Positions 20,646 to 24,455 of a stretch of DNA of 64,000 nt are shown here, piece after piece. Source of the DNA: Comamonas sp. Y33R10-2 (GTDB lineage: Bacteria; Pseudomonadota; Gammaproteobacteria; Burkholderiales; Burkholderiaceae_C). Every line of letters starts with the position of its first letter. Position 1 is the stretch's first letter. A program made the translations under genes and the position numbers. The DNA lies in NCBI RefSeq assembly GCF_019355935.1, contig NZ_CP079925.1:2480001-2544000 (forward strand). The letters run 5' to 3'. A model generated the notes under the pieces. It did no database searches and was not told where the DNA came from. It worked only from the letters and a program-made list of their open reading frames with translations.

Positions 20646-21479
20646 TTATGGATTGGCGGGCACAACGTCGAGTAAGCCCTGCAAACGCTGATGAGCCTCG
20701 CTGCCCGCATCGGCGCGTTGCTGGTGCTTGGCCTGCAAATAGCGCTCGGTAAACACGCCCAAATAACTCTCCAGTACCTGGCCGGCATGTACATCGGCGG
20801 TATCACCCACCAGTTCAAGGCACAGGGCGGCGACCTCACTGGTGCAGAAGTGATCGTCGCGCTTAGACCTACGCAATTGATAGCGCGATAGCAAGTCAGG
20901 GTGCAGGCTCAGCACCGGAAAGCCATCCAAATACGGGCTTTTGCGAAACATCTTGCGCGCCTCAGACCATGTCGCATCCAGCAAGATGAAGAGTGGCCGT
21001 TTGCCGGGTTCAAGCGCACGCGCATCTTCACCATCCAGCGCTTGCACCACACGCTGCGGCGACTGGGCGTATTCACCGGGGAAGACGACATAGGGCTGCC
21101 ACTGGGGGTCAGCCAGCAAGGCTTCGATCTGCGGATCGACCTCGGTGCGTGACCAGCCAAAGGCATAGGTTTCGCGCACCACGTCGGCAATTAGCCAGCC
21201 GGTGTTGCTCGGCTTGAGCGGCTCTGAGTCGTGCATCAGCACACAAAACGCGGCGCGGGTGTTCAGCTCAGGGCGCAGCGCGCACATGCAGTGCGAAGGG
21301 CGCAAACGGCAGCCCTCACAGCGCTCACCCTTGGGGCCGCCACGCGCCAAAAAAGGCCGCGTGCTGCGCGCCAGCCGCGCCGTGCGCAGGCGCGATACGG
21401 CGTGGGGTTGAACAGGCGATGGAGTTGAGACGAGGATGGAAGACACAGGACTATTGTCAAAAAATTTAGAACAACTCAC
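20646..21479 (-). CDS. DTW-domain protein, probable tRNA-uridine aminocarboxypropyltransferase
   Basis: A 277-residue member of the DTW family (E. coli TapT/YfiP), which transfers the aminocarboxypropyl group of SAM to uridine 47 of tRNA. Four cysteines near the N-terminus (C54, C57, C64, C66 in CEGCRLRPSHCMC) form the likely metal site, and LLDATWSEARKM (residues 167-178) holds the DTW motif. The MHDSEPLKPSNTGW segment is also family-typical. The first 45 or so residues look unconserved, so the true start may be later. A restriction-modification island begins just upstream. Confidence 0.88.
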   Translation of the reverse strand: MSCSKFFDNSPVSSILVSTPSPVQPHAVSRLRTARLARSTRPFLARGGPKGERCEGCRLRPSHCMCALRPELNTRAAFCVLMHDSEPLKPSNTGWLIADVVRETYAFGWSRTEVDPQIEALLADPQWQPYVVFPGEYAQSPQRVVQALDGEDARALEPGKRPLFILLDATWSEARKMFRKSPYLDGFPVLSLHPDLLSRYQLRRSKRDDHFCTSEVAALCLELVGDTADVHAGQVLESYLGVFTERYLQAKHQQRADAGSEAHQRLQGLLDVVPANP

Positions 21480-21601
21480 ATTCGATAAGTTGTTCCTGTC
21501 TTCTAAGAAGATAAGACTTCAATGACAGATGCGAGAGAGATGCACACAAAAATCAGCAAAGACTTGACTGGGTAAACAGCTCTTATGAAGTTTAAAGAGG
21601 T

Positions 21602-22573
21602 TCATGCATCCGCTGATGCAGTAGTTCTCGAGAGTTTTTTGAGAGCCCTAGCATTGATAGCTGCCACAATTTGATCACCGACAGCTTTAGCAACCGGTGG
21701 TGGAAAGGCATTTCCAACTTGTCGATAGGCGGCAGTTTTTTTACCAAAAATTTGCCAACTGTCGGGGAATCCTTGAATTCTTGCAGCCATCCGCACGGTC
21801 AATCGAGGCATTCCTTCAAACGCGATTGCGGGAGGTGCGTCAGCGAGACCACGCCCGTCCACGCCGATAGCTGCCCAAGCATGGCGCGCGCGAGTCGGAC
21901 CAAGATCCGGGCCTCCATGCTTTTTAGAGCCTCCGACAAGAGTGGGAGCAATCGCTTGTGCATCATCGCGCCACTGCTGAGCGCCCGTCCAGCCGTCAGC
22001 AGCCATGAGATCATAGAGTGCATCGCCAACAGTTAAAGGCTTGATGCGCCCCGGTTCCGGCCAACTGAAATATGGCGCTATTTCTCGTTTGAGGCCAACC
22101 AAAATTGAGCGTGGACGCAATTGCGGTACACCAAAATCGCTAGCTTGTAATAGACGCCACTCCGCGTGGTATCCGAGCTTATGAAGCGTATTAATTACAT
22201 TCGCACGATAGTCAGCAAACCTAGGATCAAGCAGTCCTCGCACGTTTTCTAGCATTACCGCTAGTGGCGACGCTTCTTCAACGAGACGCAGCGCTTCGGG
22301 GAACATATCTCGCTCATCATCTGCTCCTAATTGCTTGCCAGCATGCGAAAAAGGCGGGCATGGTACGCCGCCTGCAATTAATTCAATCCCCTTTAGGTGT
22401 GCTGACGTGTATTCACGAACATCGCCTTCAATGACCCGCCATTCCGGTCTATTCAATCGCAGCGTCGCGCAAGCAGGAGCCTCAAACTCAACAAGGTCCA
22501 TATGCCCAAATCCGGCTTGCTCAAGTCCCAATGCTTGGCCACCTCCACCTGCGCAAATTTCAATTGAATTCAT
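21602..22573 (-). CDS. C5-cytosine DNA methyltransferase of an NaeI-like system
   Basis: Protects DNA by methylating cytosine C5 within the recognition site. The 323-residue protein has the ordered motifs: I ICAGGGGQALGLEQAGF (residues 6-22), IV GGVPCPPFS with catalytic Cys72, VI ENVRGL (109-114), VIII QLRPR (151-155), IX and X RQVGNAFPPPVAKAVG near the C-terminus. The target-recognition region between VIII and IX is about 100 residues. Its start overlaps the stop of the upstream small ribbon-helix-helix gene by 4 nt, implying coupled translation. The divergent endonuclease gene makes this half of a type II system; the site is unproven but GCCGGC is the NaeI precedent. Confidence 0.93.
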   Translation of the reverse strand: MNSIEICAGGGGQALGLEQAGFGHMDLVEFEAPACATLRLNRPEWRVIEGDVREYTSAHLKGIELIAGGVPCPPFSHAGKQLGADDERDMFPEALRLVEEASPLAVMLENVRGLLDPRFADYRANVINTLHKLGYHAEWRLLQASDFGVPQLRPRSILVGLKREIAPYFSWPEPGRIKPLTVGDALYDLMAADGWTGAQQWRDDAQAIAPTLVGGSKKHGGPDLGPTRARHAWAAIGVDGRGLADAPPAIAFEGMPRLTVRMAARIQGFPDSWQIFGKKTAAYRQVGNAFPPPVAKAVGDQIVAAINARALKKLSRTTASADA

Positions 22574-22785
22574 TTTTTAGAGTTCTCGTTTTGAGTGTTG
22601 CGACTAACTTGACGCGTCATGGCTTCAATGATGACTTGAGTCAATGTCTTATCCGATTCGAGAGCCAAAGCCTTCCACTCTTTACGCAGTGAAACTGGCA
22701 CCAATAAATTGACTCTTACCAGTTCGTCTTCGACATTTTTTCGAGGAGTTGGAATTGGAGTGACTTGAAGTGATTTGGATTGCAT
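22570..22785 (-). CDS. Small ribbon-helix-helix-like protein, candidate controller
   Basis: A 71-residue basic protein. ELVRVNLLVPVSLRKEWKAL followed by ESDKTLTQVIIEAMTRQV fits a beta-strand and two helices of the Arc/CopG/ParG ribbon-helix-helix fold. It sits between the methyltransferase (4-nt overlap) and the divergent endonuclease, where many type II systems keep a controller protein, though classical C proteins are helix-turn-helix. An inverted repeat lies 7 bases upstream of its ATG. A regulator is inferred from position and fold; an antitoxin role is possible but no toxin is present. Confidence 0.72.
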   Translation of the reverse strand: MQSKSLQVTPIPTPRKNVEDELVRVNLLVPVSLRKEWKALALESDKTLTQVIIEAMTRQVSRNTQNENSKK

Positions 22786-22949
22786 ATATTAACTGTATAT
22801 AAAAACAGTATACCAGACTCAAAAAAGGCTCATATGAGTAGATGAGTATCTTTTGTCCTTGATGCGCAATTTGAAGCATCGGCAACATTGGGAAATATTT
22901 TGTGATGTAAGCCTCATGGCTTTGAGAGGAGGCCGGCTAGAGTTGATCT
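22786..22949. promoter_or_regulatory. Divergent control region of the R-M island with two candidate operators
   Basis: This 164-bp A/T-rich gap separates the leftward regulator-methyltransferase operon from the rightward endonuclease. ACTGT (22792-22796) and ACAGT (22805-22809) form an inverted repeat 7 bases before the regulator's start. CTCATATGAG (22829-22838) is a perfect 10-bp palindrome. Either could bind the ribbon-helix-helix protein; that assignment is inference. Confidence 0.45.
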
Positions 22950-23783
22950 ATGACTACCAAGCCTCAAATACATCCATCGGATTCAACGCTCGACAGCGTT
23001 GAAAAATTTTTACGAGCTATCCCCGATTTGGAACAAAAGCTTGTTGATGGGGTCGCTCGCGCCATTGACGAAGTGATTGACCCTGTACGCAGCGCTCGGT
23101 GGACAATCGCGGAATTGGATAAGCCAGAAAAAACTGTTTTTGGCATCCGAGTCGAAAACGTACTACGGATGGAGCTAGAACTCGAGCGTTCGCCAGTGCT
23201 CGATGTGAAGATTGCAGGAGAAAATGTTGACATCAAGTTCACGGTGCGCTCGAATTGGACTATCCCTCCTGAGGCCCATGACGAAATTTGTCTTGTTGCC
23301 CGTTTTAAAGAAATTAATCATGCCGTTTCCGTTGGACTCGTAAGAGTGCGGGAGAACGAACTGAATCCCGGTAAAAACCGGGATGCAAAATCTGGTCTAA
23401 ATCCAATTGGAATGAGCCGGGTCCGCTGGCTGGTCAAAGACCAAGTCGCTAAGAGCTCAATTATTGGTTTTATGGCAGGCCTCCCGCTTCAGCTTCGTCG
23501 CGACATAACGGACCCTCATGTTGGAGCGCAAACTAGACTCAACAGGCTATTTGTAGCGTTACTTAACCAGAAAATTCCTGAAACATTAGTAGAAGCAGTC
23601 TCTCAGCACCGCGACTGGACGAGACGTATGAGACCAGATGCATCAAATGCACGAGCTCCTGGAAAAAAGTTCGATGTACTTCGTGCATCCTCGTCTGAGG
23701 ATCGAAAACTCATAAAAACCGCCGGTTTACCTCCATTACCAAAAGGTTTTTGCATGAGTATTGATCCGATGAACTTTCCATGA
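22950..23783 (+). CDS. NaeI-family type II restriction endonuclease
   Basis: A 277-residue protein that resembles NaeI in its N-terminal endonuclease domain. WTIAELDKPEKTVFGIRVEN, then Asp85 in VLDVKIAG and VDIKF give E69, D85, D94 and K96, the same spacing as the NaeI active site E70, D86, D95, K97 as I recall it. NWTIPPEAHDEICLVARF follows as in that family. The C-terminal half (about 150-277) would be the second DNA-binding domain that makes NaeI an allosteric two-site enzyme; it is about 40 residues shorter than NaeI (317). Divergent from the cognate-looking methyltransferase operon. Codon use is more A/T-rich than neighbours, consistent with transfer. Confidence 0.85.
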   Translation: MTTKPQIHPSDSTLDSVEKFLRAIPDLEQKLVDGVARAIDEVIDPVRSARWTIAELDKPEKTVFGIRVENVLRMELELERSPVLDVKIAGENVDIKFTVRSNWTIPPEAHDEICLVARFKEINHAVSVGLVRVRENELNPGKNRDAKSGLNPIGMSRVRWLVKDQVAKSSIIGFMAGLPLQLRRDITDPHVGAQTRLNRLFVALLNQKIPETLVEAVSQHRDWTRRMRPDASNARAPGKKFDVLRASSSEDRKLIKTAGLPPLPKGFCMSIDPMNFP

Positions 23784-23843
23784 ACACGGGTAGCAGTGAA
23801 TGAGTTGGATCCAACTACTATTAACGAAGCCAAAGCTTTCGCT

Positions 23844-24455
23844 TTACCCACCCACGGCTTCAAGCTCAAACAGCGGCATATCGGCCTTGCGGCTCAGCCA
23901 CACGCCGCCGCCCAACTCTTTAAAGTGGGGCTGCAGACCACGGCGATACAGATCGGCGCGGTGGCGGTACAGGCGTGAGTCGGTCAAGACTTCATCAATG
24001 ATGTCGCGCTCGTAGTCTTCTTTGGCTACCGCTTCGATGTAGAGACCGCCGCACGACAGGCGCCCTAAATTGGTCAATGCCTTCTTCAAATCCGGCGGGC
24101 TTAAGTACGGCAGCACGCCTTGGCAAATCACCAAATCGAAGGGCTTGCCGTCTTGAGGCTGCCAATCCACGACCGAGCCCTGCTGCCAGCCATAGCGCTC
24201 GCACAGATAGGGGCTAAATTCCACGCCCTGATAGCTCACGCCAGGGAAATGCTGCTCCACCGTGTCGCGCCACAGACCAATGCCGCAGCCCACATCCAGC
24301 ACCCGCCGCACCGGCACGCGCAGATACGCAAGATACGAGCAGACAAACGCACCCAGCCGACGGGCGTGCTCGGGGTCGATCACGCTGGTCTTTTTATCGA
24401 AGTAAAAGCGCTGGTAATACGCCTCGTCAAACCACTCGTTGCTTGCAGATTGCAC
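23844..24455 (-). CDS. Class I SAM-dependent methyltransferase
   Basis: A 203-residue cytosolic protein. Motif I VRRVLDVGCGIGLWRDTV (about residues 48-65) binds SAM; YQGVEFSPYLCERYG and FDLVICQGVLPYLSPPDL are motifs II and IV. The N-terminus WFDEAYYQRFYFDKKTSV is typical of a conserved methyltransferase group, but the substrate is unknown. The restriction-modification island separates it from the DTW gene on the same strand. Confidence 0.88.
   Translation of the reverse strand: MQSASNEWFDEAYYQRFYFDKKTSVIDPEHARRLGAFVCSYLAYLRVPVRRVLDVGCGIGLWRDTVEQHFPGVSYQGVEFSPYLCERYGWQQGSVVDWQPQDGKPFDLVICQGVLPYLSPPDLKKALTNLGRLSCGGLYIEAVAKEDYERDIIDEVLTDSRLYRHRADLYRRGLQPHFKELGGGVWLSRKADMPLFELEAVGG

Follow-up and report, generated by a model that had tools for sequence, protein, structure and literature searches.

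A probably acquired NaeI-type restriction-modification island with a predicted ribbon-helix-helix-like control gene, and the recurrence of such genes beside methyltransferases on plasmids and viral contigs

We found a NaeI-type restriction-modification (R-M) island with a ribbon-helix-helix (RHH)-like control gene in a 64,000-nucleotide stretch of the Comamonas sp. Y33R10-2 genome (henceforth the window), which is part of a broader pattern of RHH genes coupled to methyltransferase genes; it is this recurrence that is new. From comparative analysis of the sequences, we judge it probable that the island is an acquired type II R-M cassette, whose RHH-like protein is predicted to bind the intergenic DNA, repress its own operon and likely restrain the endonuclease. 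With slightly less assurance, we favor the view that RHH proteins form, beside the HTH C proteins, a modular class of R-M regulators that was drawn repeatedly from the pools of plasmid partition or antitoxin proteins. Its members would be coupled to the methyltransferase by a 4-nt overlap, act from a palindrome in the promoter and be interchangeable between NaeI, NgoMIV, NotI, SacI and XamI systems, and the window would represent a ParG-like instance that has its own operator.

How an R-M system spares its new host is a standing question and, to our knowledge, the avoidance of new-host killing has been worked out in detail mainly for the HTH C proteins. Should there be a second, unrelated class of regulator with a recognizable operator, it would provide a control circuit that can be tested in several restriction families, a signature by which overlooked genes of ~70 codons could be found in genomes, and a connection from R-M cassettes to antitoxins and plasmid partition regulators.

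Organization and acquisition of the cassette

The open reading frames of the window bear out the original prediction of a methyltransferase gene that shares 4 nt with a small gene and of an endonuclease gene that diverges from both. The C5-cytosine DNA methyltransferase gene (M; 323 aa; 21602..22573, minus strand) lies immediately downstream of the gene for the RHH-like small protein (71 aa; 22570..22785, minus strand), the stop codon of which overlaps the M start: the small gene closes with ...AAATGA, in which 4 nt are common to its final codon and the M ATG. The endonuclease gene (R; 277 aa; 22950..23783, plus strand) is divergent from this RHH-M operon. The adjacency of the R and M genes and the conservation of their motifs mark the cassette as a type II R-M system. 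Both promoters are presumed to lie in the 164-bp intergenic region between the operon and R (22786..22949), and are no more than presumed there because a sigma-70 consensus scan of 21400-23900 gave no promoter site. A terminator-like hairpin is found within the first R codons (22982-23003; 9-bp stem, dG -11.2 kcal/mol, z -3.4, followed by a T run) and might act as an attenuator of R; the region has 4 terminator-like sites against 2.8 in shuffled sequence, which is barely above expectation.

The cassette occupies an inserted island (21408..23847), delimited by flank homology and by its GC content of 47.6%, the remainder of the window having 56.8%. Its neighbors, as originally proposed, are a gene with a DTW domain (PF03942, E 1.4e-58) and one for a class I methyltransferase, and the two are adjacent in 27 of the 29 genus-mate loci fetched around the DTW gene. 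Comparison of the locus in related genomes likewise agrees with its earlier description as an island. In L013, the genus-mate whose DTW gene is most similar, the flanking pair is 76 bp apart without the cassette, and the homology of the flanks to this genome ends at 21407 and picks up again at 23848. The R gene is present in one of 53 genus genomes, namely the window's own, and absent from all 52 others searched. The R-M cassette is likely, then, to be an acquired island. Measured from match ends, 12 genus-mates have 18-158 bp between the DTW and methyltransferase genes and another 15 have ~1.0-1.4 kb; because the gap varies in this way (L013-L041), the same spot may take up other inserts.

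A NaeI-family endonuclease

In a profile search, R matches the NaeI family (PF09126) with 123.7 bits against a Pfam cut-off of 25, in agreement with the original family assignment, and it recovers NaeI in the PDB (1ev7/1iaw) with E 1.4e-19. The active site that had been proposed on the basis of NaeI spacing, E69, D85, D94 and K96, is invariant across 29 aligned sequences and aligns with the catalytic residues of NaeI with an offset of one residue, and the predicted structure of R fits both NaeI domains (Endo and Topo). Sequence and modeled structure together support R as a NaeI-family endonuclease, for which cleavage of DNA is predicted. The type IIE enzyme NaeI itself is 28% identical to R and longer, as had been recognized (317 aa versus 277 aa), and R, unlike NaeI, is accompanied by an RHH-like gene. 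Leu43 of NaeI is a residue with a known role, the change of which to Lys gives a topoisomerase-like NaeI variant; such a variant was rejected as a description of R, which has a valine at this position. NaeI is treated in PMC4081073. A search of a phage collection with R gave no match. One protein of 478 aa (P0029) features a NaeI-like domain joined to an HhH-GPD glycosylase domain; it looks like the outcome of a frameshift between adjacent genes and suggests that base-repair genes may accompany these C5 systems.

The methyltransferase and its putative target site

M matches PF00145 along its full length (E 3.5e-67), as befits the C5-methyltransferase first proposed, and shares 63-77% identity with M genes whose partners are NaeI-like, NgoMIV-like or HNH-type proteins. 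NaeI recognizes GCCGGC, and this site had been put forward for the cassette on the NaeI precedent only. The candidate site has slightly more behind it now: the M family is shared with NgoMIV-like enzymes, and the variable region of M is 62-75% identical to that of 15 relatives, about the same as the remainder of the protein. NgoMIV also recognizes GCCGGC, according to PMC3832669. Since one M family serves both NaeI-like and NgoMIV-like enzymes, GCCGGC is the best guess, and we infer by analogy that M and R act at this site. There are 1702 GCCGGC sites in the 3.84-Mb genome versus 1229 for the reversed control pattern, and 30 in the window versus ~40 expected; genome-wide avoidance was set aside as uninformative, there being no strong avoidance.

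A companion of ~180-200 aa is often encoded downstream of this M family (L056, L057, L059, L063, L065, L070, L043). The two that were scanned (L070, L057) are HNH proteins and the others look alike by eye; such HNH-type companions may represent an additional, third kind of endonuclease acting at this site. Vsr or Vsr-like genes are seen near several relatives (L052, L071 and L083 by annotation or Pfam; L007 and L010 by eye), and none was noted in the ORF list of the window cassette.

The RHH-like small protein

C proteins, which control R-M systems such as Esp1396I and PvuII, are HTH proteins. The window resembles these systems in having a small regulator gene in a short R-M cassette, but differs in that its small protein has no HTH match and is instead similar to Arc/ParG-like RHH proteins. 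The original prediction of a small RHH protein in place of a C protein is in this respect upheld, as far as sequence goes: the 71-aa protein matches no Pfam family and no HTH family in Pfam or NCBIfam, it matches the 'Arc-like repressor' profile of PHROGs (E 0.0023), and its best plasmid match is annotated as a putative partition protein. This relative (38.7% identity, E 6e-4) lies on a Polaromonas plasmid, where its gene overlaps the 3′ end of parA, and it carries the name 'putative partitioning protein ParB'. A match in Nostoc (E 0.03) is also placed after a parA-family gene. These two are the matches examined in context out of three weak plasmid matches.

Four relatives of the window protein score 16.5-19.4 bits against ParG (PF09274; cut-off 21.4), the family of TP228 ParG (1p94), and relatives also match RHH_5 and RHH_10, all below the cut-offs. 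The family of the Polaromonas protein likewise reaches ParG at sub-threshold scores, and the window protein itself has no PF09274 match. When compared with 11 relatives, it retains R24, N26, V29-P30, S32, R34 and W37-K38. A single-sequence fold gave helices only, with no ribbon strand, and is uninformative (pLDDT 75.6, pTM 0.45). Homologue searches recovered only the protein itself in the protein database and none in the viral contigs or in 298 other family genomes, and a second place in its own genome is weak (E 0.54). We conclude that the protein is likely RHH-like and most like ParG, an assignment weaker than those of the other genes.

The parA neighborhood of both opened plasmid matches, and the ParB name of one, would fit an alternative that we consider rather unlikely, by which the small protein is a passenger RHH of the plasmid-partition or antitoxin type that came in with the island, was translationally coupled to M by chance and regulates nothing, with M and R controlled otherwise, as in relatives lacking RHH. 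Against this, and unlike the case of ParG, the ORF list of the window shows no parA-like ORF beside the small gene. The distribution of RHH genes considered below bears on the same alternative.

RHH-M operons among relatives of R and M

Searches with R yielded 18 loci besides the window, 15 of them with an M of this family, and searches with M in two samples of 398 other genomes each yielded 22 loci, three of which are shared with the R-based set. One of the 34 loci of the combined set (L069) is cut at M, leaving 33 assessable. An RHH-like gene is found just upstream of M in four of these: in L058, L060 and L071 it overlaps M by 4 nt in cassettes that Pfam (L058, L071) or inspection by eye (L060) assigns to the NgoMIV type, and in L043, which is of the NaeI type, it lies ~20 nt before M. 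The L043 case rests on matches to RHH_5 and the PHROGs Arc-like profile (~1e-4, below the Pfam cut-off), because the model that detected it already contained L043. An extra RHH match before M in L057 (E 0.1-0.2) was not RHH-like on reading and is not counted.

No RHH gene upstream of M was detected in the other 29 of the 33 assessable relatives, and the closest M relative (77%; L055, the same as L051) has divergent M and R genes with no RHH match; both observations favor a passenger. The original prediction had held RHH control to be unusual for the NaeI family. This stands insofar as its carriers are a minority, L043 being the sole one among the 15 NaeI-type loci found through R; it does not stand for the NaeI-like viral loci found through the operator (L095-L097; see below) or for RHH-M operons combined with other endonucleases.

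RHH-M cassettes on plasmids and viral contigs

The RHH protein of the plasmid locus L079, used as a query, matched 64 plasmid records, of which 60 were listed. Among the matches listed, at least 34 plasmid records have an RHH protein at least 56% identical to that of L079, and a methyltransferase gene is next downstream in 32 of these 34; the other two comprise one with a NotI-family R (M absent from the gene table) and one interrupted by IS26. Because many are near-identical, the 34 records are not 34 independent events. The M family of the window is held by 16 plasmid records, seven of them among the 34 with RHH. In the regions read, the endonucleases beside plasmid RHH-M pairs are of the NgoMIV, NotI, SacI and XamI families. 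The RHH and M genes overlap by 4 nt in L079, L080 and L084 and by 8 nt in L081, and are separated by a 113-nt gap in L083. The plasmid gene tables of L079, L082 and L085 omit the RHH gene.

The plasmid RHH-M-R operons (L079, L080, L081, L084) share with the window an RHH gene just upstream of M, but they differ in that their RHH belongs to another family, R is co-directional with M and a palindromic operator absent from the window is present. Weaker plasmid relatives of this RHH family are named YacA or VbhA-family antitoxins. Alignment of the window RHH-like family with the plasmid family by hhalign gives a probability of 48% (E 1.8e-4). The ParG-like protein of the window and the YacA/Arc-like proteins of plasmids and viruses are related distantly at best, so that such cassettes probably acquired RHH control more than once.

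In all 11 loci of the plasmid RHH family that were examined, with proteins as little as 53% identical to that of L079 and M/R pairings of four kinds, the palindrome TGGATACAC-N4-GTGTATCCA lies upstream of the RHH gene and ends 16-19 bp from its start. The four central bases of the palindrome vary, and its arms are invariant apart from a one-base variant in L085 (TGGATGCAC). Three further loci (L088-L090) have the palindrome 16-17 bp before the RHH start.

A scan of a viral contig collection with the palindrome DNA alone (18 bases fixed) returned four contigs, each of which has an RHH-M pair, with the RHH gene starting 13-17 bp on from the palindrome and overlapping M by 4 nt. With 16 bases fixed, the real palindrome returned eight contigs, comprising the same four with RHH-M and four unrelated ones, versus three contigs for a scrambled 16-base palindrome, none with RHH or M. 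Three of the four (L095, L096, L097) have a divergent NaeI-like R, 34-38% identical to the window R, and the palindrome lies between the R and RHH starts. These viral cassettes have the gene order, orientation and 4-nt overlap of the window but, unlike it, an RHH of the plasmid family and the palindromic operator. In the fourth (L094), RHH-M is followed by an NgoMIV-like R and a Vsr-like gene, as judged by eye. The four contigs share one M family (66-68% identical to the window M) and may represent few independent events. The recurrence of the RHH-M overlap with unrelated endonucleases, and the conserved operator of this other RHH family, argue against a passenger and for RHH proteins as regulators of these cassettes.

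Candidate operators in the window

The window lacks the plasmid and viral palindrome, and its intergenic region contains two candidate operators of its own. The first (22829..22849, minus strand) consists of 8-bp-phased ACTCAT-N2-ACTCAT boxes (at 22834-22847, minus strand), recognized by a motif match to L086, the locus of the closest RHH relative. The motif occurs once upstream of parA in L086 and not at all in 543,010 background bases. The phased ACTC pair in the window has P 0.005 by composition-matched Markov resampling, and a stricter, composition-matched comparison, in which a weight matrix from L086 alone was applied to the window intergenic DNA, gives P 0.065; the motif was picked after inspection of both regions. 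The boxes recall the box-and-spacer centromere described for ParG in PMC7308502, and are a suggestive lead to the window operator. The second candidate is an imperfect palindrome just upstream of the RHH start (22787..22812), an AT-rich inverted repeat with 71% complementarity over 17-nt arms, which may be a chance occurrence.

A model of control and its alternatives

In the circuit that we propose, the RHH protein would bind near its own promoter and repress RHH-M. In a newly entered naive cell the operon would be free of repressor, and M would be produced immediately. The RHH protein would accumulate together with M and hold M at a low, steady level, and the shared intergenic region would serve to keep R low until the host DNA is methylated.

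Two further alternatives are each very improbable in our estimate. The 71-aa protein could be an antitoxin-style binder of the R or M protein, with or without DNA binding, making the cassette an addiction module. This would accord with the distant relationship of the plasmid RHH family to YacA and to proteins named VbhA-family antitoxins and with the likening of R-M systems to toxin-antitoxin systems in PMC3874152. However, the feature conserved outside the genes is a palindrome in the DNA immediately ahead of the RHH gene, for which reason we favor DNA binding. Control by methylation of a promoter GCCGGC, reportedly the mode of CfrBI, would leave the RHH protein a secondary role and draws on the one GCCGGC of the island (22932-22937), which occupies positions -18 to -13 from the R start, but was rejected because the site is not enriched upstream of M (9 versus 9.4 expected within 300 bp in 40 loci including the window) or of R (2 versus 3.9 expected in 20 loci including the window).

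The preferred reading, in which the RHH protein represses its own operon and restrains R, has a parallel in Omega and PaaR (PMC3874152), where an RHH repressor gene also stands ahead of a protective gene in one operon; these, unlike the window cassette with its R-M genes, regulate toxin-antitoxin genes. In the open-access literature searched, we found no account of R-M control by an RHH protein. Among the related reports, a copG-like gene before taqIIIRM on a plasmid is interpreted as a copy-number repressor (PMC5587805), RHH domains occur in 4% of uncharacterized predicted defense clusters of E. coli (PMC13092281), DndE has two RHH domains within a modification machine (PMC10853773), the RHH protein concerned is ParG (PMC3346939), and an NgoMIV-like plasmid system is described with two genes (PMC3832669). 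The taqIII and DefensePredictor reports are the nearest hints of RHH proteins in R-M control.

Beyond the C5 cassettes, relatives of the plasmid RHH protein precede a type I R gene (L091), a helicase-like gene (L099), another large gene (L100), a type I M-like gene (L102) and a Fic-like gene (L101); the partners in the last four loci were identified by eye. Such pairings hint that RHH proteins may also control other defense or toxin operons.
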